Below are positions 7,406 through 20,554 of a stretch of DNA of 64,000 nucleotides, in pieces. The translations under genes and the position numbers were made by a program. Each line of letters starts with the position of its first letter. Within the stretch, counting starts at the first letter, position 1. Source of the stretch: Paenibacillus sp. P25. Lineage in GTDB: Bacteria > Bacillota > Bacilli > Paenibacillales > NBRC-103111. The DNA lies in contig CP085629.1 in assembly GCA_024704175.1 (NCBI GenBank), positions 2,480,001-2,544,000 of the forward strand, read 5' to 3'. The notes under the pieces were generated by a model. The model worked only from the letters and a program-made list of their open reading frames with translations. It was not told where the DNA came from and made no database searches.

Positions 7406-7603
7406 TTAGCGGTTCTTTTTCCTGGATTTGGCTTTCATTCCAGCATGCTTTAATTTTCTCGGCAAAGGGATGACATTATCGTTATGCTCTATAATTTCGA
7501 GAGACATAAGGGCGCCGCTCAAGCGGCTTAAGATCCTTTCCGCTTCCGTCTTCGTTCTGGAAAATCCGACAATCTTTCCTTTGTAGCTGATAAAATATTT
7601 CAT
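7406..7603 (-). CDS. Small basic protein, unknown function
   Basis: 65 residues, start ATG at 7603 with AGGAACC upstream. A short beta-rich start (MKYFISYKGKIVGFSRTK) is followed by a helical stretch and a strongly basic end (KHAGMKAKSRKKNR). I do not recognise the family. The basic tail could bind nucleic acid. It lies in a monocistronic position between the Spo0E-like gene and the promoter at 7.7 kb. Confidence 0.55.
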   Translation of the reverse strand: MKYFISYKGKIVGFSRTKTEAERILSRLSGALMSLEIIEHNDNVIPLPRKLKHAGMKAKSRKKNR

Positions 7604-7723
7604 AGGCAGGGTTCCTATCCTTGGGTTTTGTTTAGTTTATTGGAGGGATTATTCGGGTATTACATTCCTTACCCGCTATATCGAATCGTGAAACATCCGG
7701 CGTCCAGCCCACGGTTCCAGCTA

Positions 7724-7777
7724 TTGACAATGAGTCGGACACTTACTAGAATGAGAAATGTAAGTTATCACTTACAT
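7724..7777 (+). promoter_or_regulatory. Strong SigA promoter with perfect palindromic operator
   Basis: TTGACA (7724-7729) and TAGAAT (7747-7752) are 17 bp apart, close to the SigA consensus. Directly after lies the perfect 20-bp dyad ATGTAAGTTATCACTTACAT (7758-7777), arms of 8 with a 4-base centre, covering the expected start site. This is the geometry of a repressor site of TetR type. It drives the short gene at 7798 and probably the epoxide hydrolase. No obvious cognate repressor gene is adjacent. Confidence 0.75.
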
Positions 7778-7797
7778 ACAGAAGAGGAACATCCATC

Positions 7798-7972
7798 ATG
7801 AGCAACCAGCTGCAGCCGGGGATAAGCTTTTGCGTTTCATTACGCCGAGGGAATGACCAGGCTGTTCGTTGAATCTCATCTCCATGGCAGGCCGGATGAG
7901 AGGCCGGATGAGAGGCCGGACGAATTTATCGAGGTAAGTGTGCGGAACTTCGCTAGGGCATTAACCCCCTAG
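7798..7972 (+). CDS. Short protein with RPDE repeats, frameshifted, unknown function
   Basis: ATG at 7798 follows an AGAGGAA ribosome site and a strong promoter/operator. As written, the frame stops after 25 codons. If one T of the run 7828-7831 is surplus, the frame continues to a stop at 7970-7972 and gives about 57 residues. These contain FAFHYAEGMTRLFVES and a threefold RPDE repeat. I do not recognise the family; it may be the head of a truncated gene. The excellent expression signals argue that something here is or was translated. Confidence 0.4.
7890..7923. repeat. 12-bp tandem repeat, nearly three copies
   Basis: GGCCGGATGAGA is repeated at 7890-7901 and 7902-7913, with a diverged partial copy at 7914-7923. 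In the reconstructed frame of the short gene it encodes RPDE repeats. Confidence 0.8.
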
Positions 7973-8044
7973 CTTTAATAATCCGCAATGTGTAAGCAAG
8001 TACTTGCATTCATTTTGACCAAATCAGAGGAGGCATTGGTTCCA

Positions 8045-9168
8045 ATGGATACTTCGATTCGCCCGTTTCAAATTAAAGTCGCTCAAAGGGAACTCGATGA
8101 GCTGAAGGCACGTTTGATCCAGACCCGCTGGCCCGATGAAATGCCCGGCCTGGACGGTAACGCCGGACCGGCGCCCGGCTATATGAAGGAGCTCGCGGAA
8201 TATTGGCGGACCTCGTATGACTGGCGGAAGCAGGAGGAGCGCCTAAACGGATCCCCCAATATACCACTATGATCGACGGGGCCAATGTACATTTCCTGCA
8301 TGTCAGGTCGCCTGAGCCGAATGCCTTTCCGTTGATTCTTACGCACGGCTGGCCGGGCTCCATTGTTGAATTCCTTGAAATCATCGGACCGCTCACCGAT
8401 CCCAGGTCCTATGGGGAAGATCCGGCCCATGCGTTTCATCTGGTGATCCCTTCAATTCCCGGCTTCGCTTTTTCCGGTCCTGCTCCGGGGCCGGGCTGGA
8501 ATGTCAACCGGATCGCGCTTGCCTGGGCCGAGTTAATGAAACGTCTAGGCTACAGCCGTTATGGAGCGCAGGGCGGCGATTTCGGTTCGGCCATTTCCCG
8601 CAACCTGGCTTCCGTCGATCCGGAGCATGTCTGCGGCGTACATCTGAACTATTTGCATTTTAAACCGAACGAAGATATCAGCGATTTATCCGATGAGGAG
8701 AAGAGACGGCTCGCGAAGGGGAAGGCCTACCTGGCCGCACCTGCAGGGTATATGATTCTGCAATCGACCAAACCGCAGACGGTGGCTTATGTGCTTAACG
8801 ATTCTCCGGCCGCTCAGCTGGCATGGATCGTTGACAGATTCCTCGATTGGACGGATCCCGCATGCCCCGTTCCGGTCGATTCCATGCTCACGAACGTGAT
8901 GCTCTATTGGCTTACCGGCACCGCCGGGTCGTCGGCACGTTTATACTACGATAGCGCCAAATTCAAGGGTCAGCCCATCCCCTGCCCGGCACCGGTGGGA
9001 GTGGCGGTCTTCCCGCATGATCTTGTTCAGCCGGTGCGCCGTATGGCGGAGGCTCGGTACCAAATCGTGCACTGGACCGAATTCGACCGCGGAGGCCATT
9101 TTGCGGCGATGGAGGTTCCCGAATTGTTTATCCGCGACCTACGGGCCTTCTTCAGCCTGTTCCGGTGA
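8045..9168 (+). CDS. Epoxide hydrolase, alpha/beta fold with EHN domain (one frameshift)
   Basis: About 375 residues after restoring one C in the run 8253-8257. It hydrolyses epoxides to diols through an Asp ester intermediate. The N-terminal EHN domain (IRPFQIKVAQRELDELKARL, then TRWPDE) is followed by the hydrolase core: oxyanion motif HGWPGS, nucleophile Asp in QGGDFGS, and the general-base His in RGGHFAAMEVPE. This order is that of juvenile-hormone/microsomal-type epoxide hydrolases. GAGGAGG at 8027-8033 supports the ATG at 8045. A perfect 12-bp palindrome GCAAGTACTTGC (7996-8007) lies just upstream. Probably under the promoter/operator at 7.7 kb. Confidence 0.88.
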
Positions 9169-9238
9169 TCCCCGGAAGGGGAGCCTATTAGCCTATTTCT
9201 TCTCGATGAAGAAATGGTATGCAAAGGAGCAAACGAAG

Positions 9239-9316
9239 ATGACAGCCAGCACTAACATGGTAAAGGATGTCCAAACCTTACAGTTTTATCATTTTGGCAT
9301 GCGACTTGCCAAATAA
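9239..9316 (+). CDS. Possible 25-residue small protein
   Basis: ATG at 9239 has a near-perfect AAAGGAG 9 bases upstream and reads 25 codons to TAA, ending FYHFGMRLAK. A hairpin follows at once. Neither homology nor composition settles whether it is translated; the ribosome site is the only positive sign. Confidence 0.3.
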   Translation: MTASTNMVKDVQTLQFYHFGMRLAK

Positions 9317-9336
9317 AAATGACCCATACGGGTCAT
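9311..9336 (-). terminator. Minus-strand intrinsic terminator
   Basis: ATGACCC / GGGTCAT arms (9319-9336) around a 4-base loop. On the minus strand the stem is followed by TTTTTATTT. It could end transcription of the kinase-like gene at 9481. Confidence 0.5.
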
Positions 9337-9480
9337 GAAAGGAAGTATCTGTTCTAAATCCTATTGATCTCAAATGAAGCTATACGCATGCCTTTCGTTA
9401 AGTATGGGTAGCCGCTTTCAGTTACAAGCGTCTGTTGCCTTGAGTCAAATACCCTTCCTTGACTTGTCCGGTATTCCAGC

Positions 9481-13454: not shown

Positions 13455-14177
13455 TTAATGATGGGAGATCGACTGACTCCGGTTCCAGGACGGTTCCGGC
13501 GCCGAAAGCCGGGAAGGAACAAAATACAGCCGGCCGTCCGTTCCCTTCACCGCATAGCGGATATCCTCGAGCCGGTAGCCTTGCTTCGCCGCTTCTTCAC
13601 CAAGCCGGTATTCCGTCAGGCCGTGCAGATGGAGCTGCGTCTTGAGGAGCTTTCCGTCTACAATAAGCTCCGCCGCGCAGCCCTCCGCCGCTTCCCTAAA
13701 GGAGGAAACCGTTAAGGGCCGGTATTCCTTCTTTTTCAAGACGGAGATTTGACCGCCCTTCTCCAGTATCGCTTTCTCCACCTCGTTCGGATCGAAGACT
13801 TGCTCGAGCCGCAGCCGCTGCAGAAGCAAGTCCTCTGTAAATTTATGCTTCTCCATCGCTTCCTTCAGAATCTCGCCGTTCTCGATCACCGTGACGGCCT
13901 TGCCTTCAATCCATTGCCTTGCCTTCCGCGAACGCATTTCAAAGACGATAAGAACGAGTGTAATGATGCCGAGTACGATCATCGACAGAACGAAAATCCG
14001 GCTTTCGATCTTGATGTTGAAGGCCAGATTCCCGGCAAGGGTTCCCAGCATCGTCGCCGTAATCAGATCATGGAAGCGAAGCTGCGCCACCATTCTTCTT
14101 CCGGTAATCCGGGTAATCACCAGCATGAGAAAGAAAGCCGTCATCGTCCGAAAGATGATATTCATGGTTTCGCTCAT
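13455..14177 (-). CDS. DUF421 (YetF-like) membrane protein
   Basis: 240 residues. Three hydrophobic segments at the N-terminus (IFRTMTAFFLMLVITRITG, the LITATMLGTLAGNLAF stretch, and FVLSMIVLGIITLVLIVF) are followed by a cytoplasmic domain with the family pattern GKAVTVIENGEILKEAM and LRLEQVFDPNEVEKAI. B. subtilis members (YetF, YdfS) are spore or membrane proteins of unclear role. I choose ATG at 14177 because AAGGGGA lies at the right distance; an in-frame TTG at 14195 does not have one. Intact. Confidence 0.88.
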   Translation of the reverse strand: MSETMNIIFRTMTAFFLMLVITRITGRRMVAQLRFHDLITATMLGTLAGNLAFNIKIESRIFVLSMIVLGIITLVLIVFEMRSRKARQWIEGKAVTVIENGEILKEAMEKHKFTEDLLLQRLRLEQVFDPNEVEKAILEKGGQISVLKKKEYRPLTVSSFREAAEGCAAELIVDGKLLKTQLHLHGLTEYRLGEEAAKQGYRLEDIRYAVKGTDGRLYFVPSRLSAPEPSWNRSQSISHH

Positions 14178-14241
14178 ACCGCTTTTCCCCTTCAAGCTTT
14201 TTACTGTCTTTACCCTCCTCTCTCCGCTCCTAAACCTCCCG

Positions 14242-14459: not shown

Positions 14460-14831
14460 CTAGCGGGCTTGTGTGTCCGTGGTTTGCAATGCCTGAGGCG
14501 CCTGCATGGCCTTGTTGATCATTTGATTTAACACAGGAGTGTTCACAAGAGCGTTCCCGGCCTGTACACCGATCGTGTGGCCCAGATTATTGCCGAGCAC
14601 CCCGCCGACGATGGAACCGATGACGGTTCCGACACCCGGCAGCAGCGCCGTGCCCAGCATCGCGCCATATTCAATCCCGGCCATCACACCGATCGCTCCC
14701 GTTACATTCCCCGTCGTGTTGACCGCATACTGCTTTTTGTCCATCTGGCCGGTCGTTAAATTCCTGGTATCCGCAATCTGCGAAATACCGCCGGAAATCA
14801 GACCCGTCCATAAAGAACCGCCTTGAAACAT
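14460..14831 (-). CDS. Small glycine-rich membrane protein beside P-type ATPase
   Basis: 123 residues. The middle has two hydrophobic, glycine-rich segments with small-residue spacing (GAIGVMAGIEYGAMLGTALL and VGTVIGSIVGGVLGNNLG), the glycine-zipper look of tightly packed membrane helices. The N-terminus contains NLTTGQMDKKQYAVNTTGN. GAGGAG precedes the ATG at 14831. It is co-oriented with the small gene at 14874, and both are divergent from the giant ATPase. I do not recognise a named family. It may be a membrane organiser or partner of the ATPase; this is inferred from position only. Confidence 0.65.
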   Translation of the reverse strand: MFQGGSLWTGLISGGISQIADTRNLTTGQMDKKQYAVNTTGNVTGAIGVMAGIEYGAMLGTALLPGVGTVIGSIVGGVLGNNLGHTIGVQAGNALVNTPVLNQMINKAMQAPQALQTTDTQAR

Positions 14832-14873
14832 AGGGATCGCTCCTCGCTATAGAATGGAATCAAGCTGTCTCTA

Positions 14874-15119
14874 TCATTGTTCCCTGTTCGTGAGCGAAAA
14901 ATCGTCCCTTTTCCCGTTGACTGCATTTCCCTGCAGGAGGTCCTTATTCGGCAGAAAAGCCTGCAGATCCCTGGTTGCATTCTTTAATTGATCGGTCTTG
15001 TCCAGTACGGCGCCCGTCCCTTTAACGGCCAGGCGGCGAACCCCTTTTCTTGCTTCCGGCGAAACGGCCAGAAGAACGGCGGCGACCGCTAACGCAATGC
15101 CGATAGGCGATTTGATCAT
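14874..15119 (-). CDS. DUF5132-like small membrane protein
   Basis: 81 residues. A single N-terminal hydrophobic helix (IGIALAVAAVLLAVSP) is followed by a basic stretch EARKGVRRLAVKGTG and a polar tail. The layout resembles the gene at 20011 on the other side of the ATPase, and both resemble DUF5132-type proteins that accompany HMA2-containing ATPases. GGAGG lies 9 bases before the ATG. Function unknown; probably a single-pass membrane protein with a cytoplasmic tail. The family call is by layout, not by a search. Confidence 0.6.
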   Translation of the reverse strand: MIKSPIGIALAVAAVLLAVSPEARKGVRRLAVKGTGAVLDKTDQLKNATRDLQAFLPNKDLLQGNAVNGKRDDFSLTNREQ

Positions 15120-15256
15120 CGTAGAAAACCTCCATCCATTTTTTTAAAATTCATCATTCCATTTCTACAAATTTCTATGCATCGGACCCAGCCATCCGCA
15201 GATTGAATAAACCTTCCCGCAGGTAGAAATACTATCCAGACATTAATCTGCAGCAA

Positions 15257-18200
15257 GTGCATTTCATGGGCGAGGTGAGAGGTTCATTGTCTTCTATACA
15301 GAGCAAAACCAGATTTTTGCATGCTTTACCAGGAAGACTCCGCATTGAAGTCGGTGGACTCCGGAACAACCGGGAGACGGCGGACCTTCTGATCCGAACC
15401 TTCTCCGGTTTGAAGGGGATTCTCAAGGTGGAGCCTTGTATCCATACAGGCCGAATGCTGCTGCGGTACGCGGAAAGCCATATTTCCGCTGAGGAGATTT
15501 TCAGGCATATCCGGGAACTGGAGCAGCTTCAGGCTGCACACAGCGGTCCGGAGCCGGCGGCCGAGCCCGCCCCGTCCGAACCGGACGAAGCCAAACGGGA
15601 AGCGGCGGCGGCCGTTGAAACGGAAACGAGACTTCCCGGCGATATGAGGTCGCTTCCGCCGGTCCCGGCGGTTGCCGGAAACCAAAGCAGGGAAAAAATT
15701 CCTCTTCCCCTTGCATTATCGATGGGCGGCTTAGCCGTCTTGGGGGTGAAGCAGCTCTTTATGGGGTCATCGGCCCAGGCACGGAGCCCGGCGCCATTCT
15801 ATTTATCAGCCCTGGTTTCCGTCGTGACGGGGTTTCCCTTCCTTCAGCGCGGTATTCAATCCTATTCGGCAGAGCGCAGGATCAATGCGGATTTGATTCT
15901 GGGAACAAGCGCGCTCGCCTTGGCACTGATACGTGAGAATTTGGTCGTACTGGCGGGCTTGAGTATTCTGCAATATGTGAATTGGAAGCGAAGTTCGTCG
16001 GTCACTAACGGACGGCAGGAACCTGTACTTTCGCCTGAAATCCGTCAATACGGTGAAATCTCGGGCAAATGGGGACTGGTCGCCGCCGGAGCAACCTGGG
16101 CTCTAACCCGCAATCCGCTGCGCGCGATCGCCGTTCTGCTTGCGGCCAATCCGCGTCCGGCCCTAATTCCCGCCCGGTGTGCGTGGAATCAGGCGGAGCT
16201 GGTTTCCGATGAACGAAAGTATACCGTCCCGGACCATGGCTCCCTGTCCCGGCTGGCCCGAACGAAGACCCTTTTATTCGAGGATACTTCACTTCTGTTC
16301 ACGCCGCCGGATCGGGATCCTATCGAATGTATCGCCGTTCCAGACGAAGACACCGATCCTATCCTTTGCTCCGCGGCCTCCTTAATGGAGAAAAGCGGAC
16401 ATCCCTGGAAAGAAGCCGTATGGGCGAAAGCGAAAGCGACATGCCGGACGATTCGCACAGCCTTCCATGTGGAGGAAGAGGAAGACGGCATCCAGGGAAA
16501 AATAAAAGACAGCCTGATTCTGATCGGTAGTCTCAAATATCTCGGGGCGCACGGAATCGACTGCACCGCCTATGAACTGAAAGCCAAGCGTTTGGAGAAG
16601 AAGGGCAGCAAGGTGCTGTTTGCAGGCATCCGGGAGCCGGCCCGTACGGAATGCCTCGGTCTGCTTGTGAAGCATGAGGCCCCGGCCCTGAATGCGCAGG
16701 GCCCGCTGGCCGAATCTTTTCTTAAGCAGGGCTGGCGCGTAGGTTTCCTGCAGAACAGCCTGCATTTGAACCCCGCCCTCTTGGCTCAATACCAAATGGA
16801 TGCAAGCTGGCAGTCAAGGGAACCGGGCGAGGTGATTGAACAGATCGCCGCTCTCCGTCACTGCGGAGAAGAAGTGCTGCTGGTTACGGGTCCCGCACCG
16901 GATCCCGTCGGTCATTTTTACAAAGAAGCGGGGCTTCCGTCCCTCCCGGTGGAGGAGCTGAACGGCCTTCAAGAAAGCTTACGCTATGCGGAAAGCATTG
17001 ACCGGACCGTGAATCGTCATTTTCAAATTACGAAGGGCTGGAATTTGCTTGGAACCGTCATGGCAACGTTCGGAATAATCAGCGCACCGGTTGTCAATTT
17101 GGCGGCGGATGCGCTGTCGCTTGTCTTCATGTCCCGCACGCAAAGAGTCAGCGAAGCTTCGTTATCCGGTCCGGCTCACCGCGAGCTTCCGGAAATTGCA
17201 GCCGCTTCGGAAGAGGCGCTCTGGCATTCGCTTCCCAGCGAACGGGTGCTTGCCCATTTCCAAATCCAAACGGAGCAAGGGCTGACTCCGGAGCAGGCCT
17301 CCGCTCTCAGAGAGCGGTTTGGCCCGAATCGCCTGAACAGCAGGCAGCAGGTGCCCTGGCTGGCAACCTATCTCGGCCAATTCAAGGAATTTACCACCTT
17401 GATCCTGCTGGGTACCACGGCTTTGGCTCTGTTTACCGGCGGGTTGTTCGACGGCCTCGCCATGGGGGCTATTCTGCTGGCCAATGCCGCGATCGGTACG
17501 GTTCAAGAACGGAAGGCCGAGAAAGTCGTCGAGTCGTTGAACGAATTTCAGCCCCCTGCCTGCAGAGCCATCCGGTCCGGACAGCAAACGGAGATGTCCG
17601 CCGCGGATCTCGTTCCGGGCGATATCGTAACGCTTGAAGCCGGTGACCGCGTTCCCGCCGACCTGCGTCTTATCCGGTCCTGGAACCTGCGTGTCAATGA
17701 AGCGGCCTTAACCGGAGAATCCCTGCCGGTCGACAAGCAGGATACCGCGCTCGATGCGGACTGTTCTCTATCCGAACGAAGCAATATGCTGTACATGGGA
17801 ACGGATGTATGCGGCGGCAAAGGGATCGGCGTGGTGGTGCAGACAGGCATGCGGACGGAGATGGGCCGGCTTATGTCCCTGCTGAAGCCCCACGACAAAG
17901 AGGTCACCCCGCTCCAGGAAAAGGTTACGTCCATCAGCAAGAAATTTATGAAGGGCGCTCTTCTCGCTGGAGGGGTTGTATTCATTACCGGCCTCTTGCG
18001 CGGCAATCCCGTTACGCAAATGGTCTCCACCTCGATTACACTGGCGGCTTCCGCCATCCCGGAGGGGCTTCCCGTAACGATAACCATTGCCTTAAGCGCC
18101 GGGATCTACCGTATGGCGAAGAAGAACGCTCTGATCCGAAAGCTGTCTTCCCTGGAAACGCTCGGCAGGACCACCGTCATTTGTACGGATAAAACCGGAA

Positions 18201-19962
18201 CGCTGACCCAAAATGAAATGACCGTCAAGGCGGTTTCTACGCTGAACCGGTCATGGACCGTAACCGGCAATGGATACGACCCTTCCGGCTCCCTGCTGGA
18301 GACGGGTCCGGAAGTGGCGGCTTCGTCCGCCCTTGCGGAGCCTAAGGAACTTCAAGGAACTGTGGGGATCCCGATCTGCAGCGCCTCCTTCAAATCTGCG
18401 TGCTCTGCAACAACAGTAAACTGGAGCAGCAGGAAGGCCGGTGGATCACCAAGGGAGATCCGACGGAGGGTGCCCTTCTCGCGCTTGCGGCCAAGACGGG
18501 ATTATGGGACAAAGATCTGTCCCATTGGCACCGCGGATTTGAAATCCCGTTCGATTCGGGCACGGCCAAGATGAGTGTCGTTTGCAAGGATACGAAGGCC
18601 GAACAGGAATGCTATGTATTTTCCAAAGGCGCCGTCGAATCGATTCTCCGGCACTGCAGCCGTTACCAGAAAAACGGGGAGCTGTTTCCTTTAACGGATG
18701 AGCTGAAAGAGCTGATTCTTCAGCAGAACGGGAAGTATTCCGAGGAGGCTCTGCGGGTGCTGGCCTTCGCCTACAAGCCGGTCGATGAAACAGCCGGCGA
18801 AAGCGGCATGGACGAAACGGATCTGATCTACGTAGGAATGGCCGGGATGATCGACCCGCCCAAGCCCGACGTGGAATCCAGCATCCGCGAAGCGTTCGCG
18901 CTCGGGGTTAAACCTGTGATGATCACCGGAGATCATCCGATTACCGCGATCGCCATTGCGAGACAGCTTGGAATCTATGACGGCACGCAGAAGGTTTTGT
19001 CGGGACATGAACTTGAACGGATGACGGACGACGAACTGAACCGCGTCGTCGAGGAGGTCTCGGTCTTTGCAAGGGTGACGCCGGAGCATAAGCTCCGCAT
19101 CGTAACGGCGCTGCAGCATCGCGGGCATATCGTGGCGATGACGGGAGACGGCGTGAACGATACGCCTGCGATCAAGCAGGCCAACGTCGGGATTGCCATG
19201 GGGCGGACCGGAACGGAAGTAACCAAGGAAACGGCAGATATGGTGCTGAAGGAGGACCATTTCGGCACGATCGTGGATGGGGTTAAAGAAGGACGGACGA
19301 TCATGGGCAATATCCGCAAGGCGCTCGGCTGTCTGTTAACCGGCAACTTGGCCGAGATTATCGTCACCAGCGCCGCCGTCATGCTGGGCATGCCGATTCC
19401 GCTTGTACCCATTCAGATTCTGCTCATGAATCTGCTGACGGACGCGCTCCCCGCCATGGTTCTCGCTGTGAATCCGGGAAGCAAGACCAAACAGACGAAG
19501 CGGATGGATATCGTGGATAAGGAGCTTTACCGGAAGGTGATCACCAAAGGCGTGCTGCTCGGACTCGGCTCCCTCGGGTTATTCGCGGCAAGCCTGGCGG
19601 CCGGAGCGCCCTTGCCGGTGGCGCAAAGCACGGCCTTCGCGACCTTGGTGGCGGGCCAATTGATCCAAACCTTCTCCTGGCGTCAGGAGGGCTCGAAGGA
19701 AACGGTCCGGGATTGGGCTAAAGACCGGTATTTGGTCGGTGCGCTGGGCATCTCGTGGCTGGCTCTGCTTGCCGCACTGTATGTCCCGCCGCTCGCCGGT
19801 TTCTTTCATACCGCACCTCTACCGTTAAGGCAGTGGATACCGATCTTCGGGGTAGCGGGCTCCGTCTCGCTCTTGTCCCGTCCGATTCTGTCCCTTATGG
19901 CAAATACGGAGCAGCACGGCTCCTTACCGGAGCAGCGGCACACGGCCTATGCCGCGGTCTGA
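15257..19962 (+). CDS. Double-length P-type ATPase with N-terminal HMA2-like domain (one frameshift)
   Basis: About 1,570 residues after restoring one G in the run 18364-18367. The start may be the TTG at 15287, which has GAGGTGAG before it. Residues 15-70 form an HMA2-like domain (LHALPGRLRIEV, ending HTGRMLLRY) without CxxC. An N-terminal half with membrane segments follows; its would-be phosphorylation site reads LLFEDTSLLF, so the Asp is lost. The C-terminal half is complete: AALTGESLPV, AIPEGLPVT, CTDKTGTLTQNEMTV, KGDPTEGAL, MITGDHPIT and MTGDGVNDTPAIKQA. The PEGLP motif points to Ca/Mg/Mn-type (P2-like) rather than copper transport. The layout is like mycobacterial CtpI/CtpH. Flanked by four small genes. 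Confidence 0.9.
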
Positions 19963-20010
19963 CCGCGGCGCGAGGCCGATTCTATTCAAAAACCCAAGGA
20001 GAAGAACAAG

Positions 20011-20295
20011 ATGATTCAGAAAAATTTGGACAAATGGATTGTCGGCGCGGCCTTGGCCGTTGCCGCATCCGCTCTTCTTCCCATTGCCAAATCCACGCTT
20101 CGGCCCCTGACTTCCAGCGGTGTGCAGGGAGGGTTCGGACTCCTCTCCCGCGTCCGGTCCGTTATTCAAACCGCCCGGGAAGAAGTAGAGGACATTATAG
20201 CGGAAGCCCAGTTTGAACGGATGAAGAAGCAGCTCGATCTGGACATTGCCCAGCTTGACGAGGAAGACGACAAGACGCCTTCCGTATCCCATTAA
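20011..20295 (+). CDS. DUF5132-like membrane-anchored protein
   Basis: 94 residues. The N-terminal hydrophobic helix (WIVGAALAVAASALLPIAKS) leads into TLRPLTSSG, then a charged coiled-coil tail (AREEVEDIIAEAQFERMKK). This is the DUF5132 look. AAGGAGAAG supports the ATG. It follows the ATPase by 48 bp, so the two are very likely cotranscribed. It has the same layout as the gene at 14874. Role unknown; perhaps it recruits or organises the ATPase in the membrane. Confidence 0.65.
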   Translation: MIQKNLDKWIVGAALAVAASALLPIAKSTLRPLTSSGVQGGFGLLSRVRSVIQTAREEVEDIIAEAQFERMKKQLDLDIAQLDEEDDKTPSVSH

Positions 20296-20329
20296 ATCTC
20301 TGTTTGAGCATGTGAGAGGAGTTTCGTAA

Positions 20330-20554
20330 ATGGCGGAGCAGAATATCGATTATCATTTGCGCGAAGCGATATCTCATCTGGAAACCGCATTAAATCAAAG
20401 CGTAAGAACCGTACTTGAAAATGAAGGCGCCAAGAAAGAGATCGGCGGCAAATGGGAGACTTTTCTTGGAGAATTTATCAGCATGGTCCGGGAAAAAGGA
20501 AAAAAATCACGAATCAATATTCTCGGATGGATTACCTTCCCGCGTATCCGGTGA
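20330..20554 (+). CDS. Small coiled-coil protein of the ATPase operon
   Basis: 74 residues, largely helical and charged (HLREAISHLETALNQSVRTV, then KKEIGGKWETFLGEFI), with a basic end. GAGAGGAG precedes the ATG. It lies 34 bp after the DUF5132-like gene, so it closes the ATPase operon. No family recognised; no membrane segment. Probably a soluble cytoplasmic partner of the membrane proteins before it. Confidence 0.6.
   Translation: MAEQNIDYHLREAISHLETALNQSVRTVLENEGAKKEIGGKWETFLGEFISMVREKGKKSRINILGWITFPRIR

Follow-up and report, generated by a model that had tools for sequence, protein, structure and literature searches.

A 64,000-nucleotide stretch of the Paenibacillus sp. P25 genome, hereafter the window, carries at positions 14460–20554 a block of five open reading frames (ORFs), two on the minus strand and three on the plus strand, in the positions and orientations given by the initial annotation. 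The largest encodes a giant P-type ATPase (15287–19962, plus strand). On its upstream side, on the minus strand, are the genes for a glycine-zipper protein of 123 amino acids (aa; 14460–14831) and for an 81-aa protein termed sm2 (14874–15119); downstream, on the plus strand, are those for a 94-aa DUF5132 protein (20011–20295) and for sm4, of 74 aa (20330–20554). This work indicates that these genes belong to a conserved gene set of spore-forming bacteria that has apparently not been described previously.

A giant ATPase resembling two fused pumps

The initial annotation had recognised a double-length P-type ATPase with an HMA2-like head. Both the head and the double length are borne out: an HMA_2 domain (15317–15538; PF19991, 40.0 bits against a cut-off of 30, at residues 21–94 of the ORF opening at 15257, and 42.6 bits in a second scan) precedes a degenerate P1B module (15539–17221) and a P2A, Ca2+-ATPase-like module (17222–19962). 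However, the gene is not a single open frame in the window, as it runs from 15257 to 18574 and then, in another frame, from 18400 to 19962, placing a break at approximately 18300–18400, inside the P2A module. The ATPases of its relatives are mostly single frames of about 1516–1686 aa, with that of locus L093 likewise in two frames, and those of L047, L055 and L058 ending at contig ends. Because the same genome contains a SASP ORF (L212) and a PG_binding_1 ORF (L223) whose frames likewise seem broken, and the 8.48 Mb, single-contig assembly has a completeness of 84.5%, the break is probably an assembly indel rather than the mark of a dead gene. Translation more likely starts at the TTG at 15287, which stands behind a GAGGTGAGAGG ribosome site, than at the GTG at 15257.

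The second half contains the Pfam domains Cation_ATPase_N, E1-E2_ATPase, Cation_ATPase, Hydrolase and Cation_ATPase_C, along with the motifs TGES, DKTGT, PEGLP, TGNLAE, MNLLTD and TGDGVND, and its final part matches LMCA1 (6zhf) at an E value of 5.7e-89. When the protein was scanned in two pieces, a PMR1-type model gave the top NCBIfam score for this half, at 337.1 bits against a cut-off of 798.3, and the equivalog cut-off was reached for neither the PMR1 nor the SERCA type. Across 35 distinct full-length relatives, the catalytic motifs TGES, DKTGT and TGDGxND are each intact in every sequence. The same is true of the six positions aligned with E309, N768, E771, N796, T799 and D800, in what we take to be the SERCA residue numbering; each is conserved in 35/35 relatives, and the window's protein is identical to them. 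By its catalytic motifs and these six cation-site residues, which are typical of Ca2+ pumps, the second half is of P2A type, and it is predicted to export Ca2+, or possibly Mn2+, out of the cytoplasm.

Profile searches with the first half find copper ATPases instead (LpCopA, 3rfu, E value 4.6e-19). An AlphaFold (AF2) model of this half, with a predicted local distance difference test score (pLDDT) of 74.9 and a predicted template modelling score of 0.51, is best matched by P1B pumps in a Foldseek search (4umw, E value 1.3e-14, with a TM-score of only 0.35 over the query). The phosphorylation motif D[KR]TG occurs in the first half of none of the 35 relatives, and a string resembling the TGE motif of the A domain in just two of them, while the model has no strands between the helices at 229–250 and 260–284, where that domain is absent. 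The fourth helix carries NPRP in 35/35 relatives, the N and the R being present in every one, and no CPC- or SPC-like metal-binding motif, whereas P1B relatives encoded separately show CPKP or CPC at this point. The first half therefore reads as a P1B pump with an HMA_2 head, stripped of its phosphorylation motif and, judging from the model, of its A domain, and the giant ATPase as two P-type pumps fused together, a dead P1B pump and a live-looking Ca2+-type pump. The initial annotation's view of the ATPase as P2-like, of the PEGLP type, rather than P1B-6 is accurate for the second half only, as its HMA_2 head sits on an entire degenerate P1B module.

Four small genes are co-inherited with the ATPase

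Among 198 Paenibacillales genomes, sm4 was found in 24: the window genome, 22 others with an HMA_2-headed frame of at least 1528 aa, and G438, in which ATPase fragments, the remnants of a deleted gene, still lie between the small genes. Full-length matches to the glycine-zipper protein (at least 161 bits) were present in 23 of the 198 genomes, all sm4-positive, such that only G370 of the 24 was without one. A further 58 genomes gave weak matches to this protein (at most 44.1 bits), mostly inside long frames, which were treated as partial and not counted.

Excluding the window, and after dropping an ordinary P2A pump (L061) and seven duplicates, there were 39 de-duplicated giant-ATPase loci in which gene order could be compared. 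All 39 had sm2, 36 the glycine-zipper gene, 36 the DUF5132 gene and 35 sm4; the four were found together in 33, with 31 reproducing the window's exact arrangement. Of the six loci without the full set, three (L047, L055 and L058) are on contigs of 4–11 kb. In others a gene has been relocated, with the glycine-zipper gene downstream in L046, sm4 upstream in L133 and sm2 co-directional in L137. The relatives span Paenibacillus, Cohnella, Brevibacillus, Gordonibacillus, Marinithermofilum and Melghirimyces. The patchy spread of the block, its tight co-inheritance and its re-linkage after rearrangement argue for function, and on these counts the four small genes are both co-inherited and co-located with the giant ATPase.

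Properties of the small proteins

The small proteins had initially been described as four membrane or coiled-coil partners. Three of them do have hydrophobic parts, but sm4 has no hydrophobic segment, reaching a maximum Kyte-Doolittle value of −0.02 over 19 residues, and by this measure is a soluble rather than a membrane protein. The protein ends in INILGWITFPRIR, and no other part marks the system as specifically. L128, L130, L131, L132 and L133 each have, next to sm4, a second, partial gene resembling it.

The DUF5132 protein (PF17195, 26.1 bits against a cut-off of 25) has a hydrophobic N-terminal helix followed by a EEVEDIIAEAQFERMKKQLD helix; no paper on this family was found in the open-licence literature. 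In sm2 a hydrophobic N-terminal helix is followed by a polar tail, and the sequence bears a SPEARK...LAVKGT motif. The resemblance of its layout to that of DUF5132 proteins, already pointed out in the initial annotation, extends to their family alignments, which hhalign relates with a probability of 95.3 and an E value of 2e-8; the Pfam DUF5132 model gives no direct match to sm2, such that this kinship is seen by profile comparison only.

The glycine-zipper protein scored 22.2 bits with the Pfam Gly-zipper_Omp model, under the cut-off of 25. Its family alignment (A3) of 21 sequences contains 21 invariant columns, 14 of them glycine. An AF2 model of four helices was of modest confidence (pLDDT 70.9), and a structural search with it returned nothing significant (best E value 1.4). 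The glycine-zipper gene of G430 (L178, 7428–7928), which lies on a different contig from the ATPase, has an sm2-like tail (E value 3e-9), and that of L133 ends in a tail that looks, by eye, like the sm2 of the same locus. These tails hint at a physical association between the two proteins.

Related clusters beyond the order

In a wider sample of 299 Bacillota genomes, sm4 was detected in 23, comprising the window genome, 20 credible cases and two doubtful ones (L205 and L206), which were dropped. Among the matches listed, 15 of the 20 credible loci share the fetched stretch with a P-type ATPase bearing an HMA_2 head, and each of the 15 contains a DUF5132- or sm2-like gene as well. The proposal that the block is a conserved system of its own, whose small genes keep company with this ATPase in related genomes, is therefore upheld both within the order, by co-occurrence in 24/198 genomes and the 39 loci, of which 33 have all four small genes, and outside it, by these 15/20 loci. 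The Pfam DUF5132 model matched eight of the 299 genomes at an E value of 0.01, the window's being the sole match over the cut-off; among the other seven, a pump cluster was seen in five but not in the two represented by L175 and L176.

The pumps of these outside clusters are fused, split, P2 only or, in the stretch seen, P1B only. Geosporobacter ferrireducens (L067) encodes the two pumps in separate, adjacent genes, one for a 626-aa P1B pump (with DKTGT, NGES and a helix-4 CPKP) and one for a 1037-aa HMA_2-headed P2 pump; DUF5132, sm2-like and sm4-like genes accompany them. This split P1B pump (7592–9472) retains DKTGT and an NGES-bearing A domain, and by eye is missing most of its nucleotide-binding domain; together with its CPKP, this degeneracy is complementary to that of the fused first half. 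Split pumps were also found in L170, L171 and L200.

A tree of the P2 modules, made by a quick method, placed all 24 from the clusters, whether fused or split, on one side of a branch that separates them from 48 ordinary P2A pumps (SH-aLRT 97), although long branches make its details unsure. Next to the giants of Paenibacillaceae in this tree were two from Actinomycetota (L166 and L167). A profile search of Actinomycetota with the first half matched 53 of 198 genomes, from which loci of G631, G690 and G561 were inspected; by frame length and matched region, most of the 53 are probably ordinary P1B pumps. Another actinomycetotal locus, L168, combines two DUF5132 proteins with a P2 pump that has an HMA_2 head.

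Upstream promoter pattern and neighbouring genes

A promoter-like site, GAATA-N18-AATACTA (15205–15234, plus strand), lies 5' of the window's ATPase and has a −35 box of the forespore (sigma-G/sigma-F) type. The pattern G[ACT]ATA-N16-19-NATA[ACT]TA precedes the ATPase in 27/40 loci, window included, with a spacing of 17–18 in 26 of the 27, and 26 of the sites lie 72–99 nt from the PGR codon. Dinucleotide shuffles produced it in a mean of 0.12 loci (maximum 2) and the reverse strand in one, although the pattern was drawn up after viewing these same loci, which are related to one another, such that the shuffle test flatters it. Within the 64-kb window it has a single match on the two strands. 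A T precedes the −35 G in 21 of the 27 sites; TTGACA at the proper distance is matched at no more than three of its six positions in 26/27; and a sigma-70 scan called no site at the window's ATPase promoter.

On the opposite side, a candidate GCATA-N16-GAATGAT (15153–15180, minus strand) would serve an operon of sm2 and the glycine-zipper gene, and a sigma-F-type promoter sought there was rejected as weak, at 5/40 loci against 0.9 after shuffling. With a motif matrix, three of six SASP ORFs scored higher than 10.3, the 95% control level, and one scored higher than the 99% level.

Two kinds of gene recur within 6 kb of the block. A Spore_YtfJ-type (GerW-like) gene is present in 10/39 loci (for example, L062 8730–9227), and a Ppk1-type polyphosphate kinase gene, whose side and orientation vary, in 14/39 (for example, L093 6837–9077); one of each was called by Pfam and the others by BLAST, and the window and the stretches around the distant clusters had a match to neither. 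Beside the window's block, at 13455–14195, is a YetF/DUF421 gene, a family of which we take some members to reside in the spore inner membrane.

A candidate forespore pump and its rivals

The reading to which we tentatively lean is that the block encodes a complex pumping Ca2+ (or Mn2+) across the forespore or spore membrane of endospore formers. Transcription in the forespore is suggested because the forespore-like promoter pattern is conserved, and expression of the ATPase operon there would place the pump in the inner forespore membrane, later that of the spore. From this position it could keep cytosolic Ca2+ or Mn2+ low while calcium dipicolinate (Ca-DPA) is loaded, or restore a low level upon the release of Ca-DPA at germination. 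The pseudo-P1B half may serve as a metal-sensing or anchoring platform, with the HMA_2 head docking or sensing; the DUF5132 protein, sm2 and the glycine-zipper protein would assemble or cluster the pump as subunits in the membrane, with sm4 as a cytoplasmic adaptor. Counting in favour of this reading, besides the co-inheritance, the Ca2+-site residues, the split pumps and the separate side of the tree, are the C-first form of the promoter pattern ahead of three spore-type genes of this genome, the SASP ORFs that score over the control levels and the Spore_YtfJ-type gene near 10/39 loci.

Many observations nevertheless weigh against this assignment, and the first group of them concerns the promoter. 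Firstly, the sigma-G consensus resembles GHATA-N17/18-CATANTA, with a −10 element beginning with C, and this first base is C in just 4/27 sites (A in 15, T in 7 and G in 1); a C-first −10 with a spacing of 17–18 occurs in 3/40 loci, and the window's own site begins with A. Secondly, 16 of the 27 −10 hexamers match TATAAT at five or six positions, leaving a housekeeping factor possible. Thirdly, the pattern is absent from 13/40 loci, and outside the order just three of the 58 gene starts examined, drawn from 23 loci, have a strict match upstream (the P2 pump of L067 and the DUF5132 genes of L194 and L196). Fourthly, the sm2-side pattern is a weaker candidate, found in 8/40 loci against 0.15 after shuffling, having been drawn from the same loci. 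Finally, the C-first pattern has 18 matches across the window genome and a reversed-pattern control 14, so that most of these matches are due to chance. An ORF follows 13 of the 18, and the ten of these scanned comprised three of spore type (a SASP, L225; a Spore_permease, L215, E value 3.5e-22; and a SleB-resembling PG_binding_1 protein, L223), two metabolic and five without a family.

The second group concerns the pump and its distribution. The position aligned with SERCA E908 is glutamine in 34/35 relatives and lysine in the other, none having an acidic residue; LMCA1 itself has arginine here in its alignment with the last part of the ATPase. Among the matches listed, 5/20 sm4 loci outside the order have no adjacent pump (L189, L191, L192, L199 and L202), although the genome of L191 has a pump cluster elsewhere (L174). 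Three of the 15 outside clusters (L196, L203 and L204) show only P1B pumps in the stretch examined, so Ca2+ would not be a universal substrate. SASP genes are present in 21/21 credible sm4-positive genomes, yet also in 256/299 of the phylum sample. Of the actinomycetotal giants, L166 (1652 aa) has weak DUF5132- and sm2-like neighbours (E values 8e-4 and 9e-5), and L167 (1500 aa) is without such small neighbours. The Actinomycetota that carry these relatives are not known to make endospores, and hence a use in spores could not be the sole role of the system.

A serious competitor is general efflux of Ca2+, Mn2+ or heavy metals from vegetative cells, with metal sensing by HMA_2, small regulatory subunits and an incidental likeness to forespore promoters. 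We regard this as possible but rather doubtful. P-type pumps commonly have small subunits, such as KdpF and phospholamban, and the HMA_2 head of the ATPase and its relatives in Actinomycetota also speak for this explanation. The −10 boxes strengthen it at the expense of a forespore pump, because so few begin with C and many fit TATAAT. Against it, a G[AC]ATA box is conserved at a near-constant position where TTGACA would otherwise stand, no sigma-70-type site was called at the window's promoter, and 10/39 loci have sporulation gene neighbours.

A ferrosome- or acidocalcisome-like organelle, in which the small proteins shape a vesicle and the pump loads it with Ca2+ or another metal, perhaps with polyphosphate as counter-ion, is an unlikely alternative. 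Several small proteins with one hydrophobic helix and a helical tail, plus a glycine zipper, would suit it, and these proteins persist as the pump type changes between P2 only, P1B only, fused and split, as expected of compartment makers. Acidocalcisomes are polyphosphate-rich and have a Ca2+-ATPase, according to PMC4263762, and Ppk1-type genes lie within 6 kb of the block in 14/39 loci; HMA_2-rich P1B clusters also exist in the same order. However, Ppk1 matches are missing from the window and the stretches of the distant clusters, the glycine-zipper protein has no significant structural match, and the active half of the ATPase is P2A, not P1B-6.

More improbable is a widespread, undescribed bacterial machine that builds a store of Ca2+ (or Mn2+) in sporulating cells, with the DUF5132, sm2 and glycine-zipper proteins forming a membrane domain or vesicle, sm4 linking this to the HMA_2 heads, interchangeable P1B and P2A pumps loading it, and polyphosphate as counter-ion where Ppk1 is linked. 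If real, such a machine would amount to an acidocalcisome of the spore, or to the bacterial equivalent of a sarcoplasmic reticulum. A chance neighbourhood or vertical synteny with no functional link is scarcely credible: although related genomes often keep neighbours and some outside sm4 loci have no adjacent pump, the co-occurrence is tight and patchily spread, and the linkage persists through rearrangement and is met again in further families of Bacillota, where pumps are rearranged and split.

DUF5132, a family without a known function, and the class of giant P-type ATPases, of which CtpH and CtpI are the best known, now have a definite gene set, the parts of which are predicted to cooperate. 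In sm4 there is a specific marker for locating the system in other genomes. The split and fused versions represent a natural experiment in which a dead pump seems to have become a module of a live one. If the proposed forespore pump is right, the handling of Ca2+ and Mn2+ during Ca-DPA loading and germination becomes directly testable.

Comparison with known systems

The initial annotation had drawn a parallel with ferrosomes (Fez), with which the block shares the combination of a P-type ATPase and small membrane proteins. The likeness does not extend to membership, which was rejected: the block's active half is P2A and its other half a degenerate P1B module, such that it has no active P1B pump and no counterpart of FezB, which we take to be a P1B-6 ATPase, and DUF4405, the FezC-like family, had no match up to an E value of 1 in eight scanned window proteins. 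PMC10979944 describes FezB as a putative ferrous iron transporter and FezC as a DUF4405-like haem cytochrome, with PMC12574912 as a further source on ferrosomes. The HMA_2-rich P1B clusters of Paenibacillales (L139 6457–11212 and L140 7635–11123) have SCG in helix 4 and different small proteins, single-helix and of 84 and 76 aa, with the tails ELIEDIIAE and RLEDLIAE. These two are possibly ferrosome-type clusters. Their EDIIAE or EDLIAE tails resemble that of DUF5132, but a link between that family and proteins of this 76–84 aa type was not upheld by profile comparison, with hhalign probabilities of only 16 and 13, and is no more than a lead. Acidocalcisomes have in common with the block a Ca2+-ATPase and polyphosphate enzymes, whereas here a Ppk1-type gene is a neighbour in a minority of loci and no organelle is known.

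The mycobacterial CtpH and CtpI (TCDB FUPA24) are the nearest giants described so far, being P-type ATPases of this kind whose C-terminal half holds a PEGL/PEGM-type pump. They are called uncharacterised in PMC10654040 and linked to FUPA24 in PMC3573892, and a 2023 review treats both as uncharacterised and as forming, perhaps, a separate family.

The P2A Ca2+-ATPases (LMCA1, SPCA/PMR1 and SERCA) share their catalytic motifs and six Ca2+-site residues with the window's ATPase. It differs from them in being fused or paired with an HMA_2-headed P1B module, in its four conserved accessory genes, in the glutamine aligned with E908 and in its separate side of the tree. YloB of B. subtilis, which we presume to be a P2A Ca2+-ATPase, is a further comparator. 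As in KdpFABC and with phospholamban, small membrane proteins partner a P-type pump; no relation to those partners emerged from the Pfam and NCBIfam scans, and those described here accompany several types of HMA_2-headed pump.

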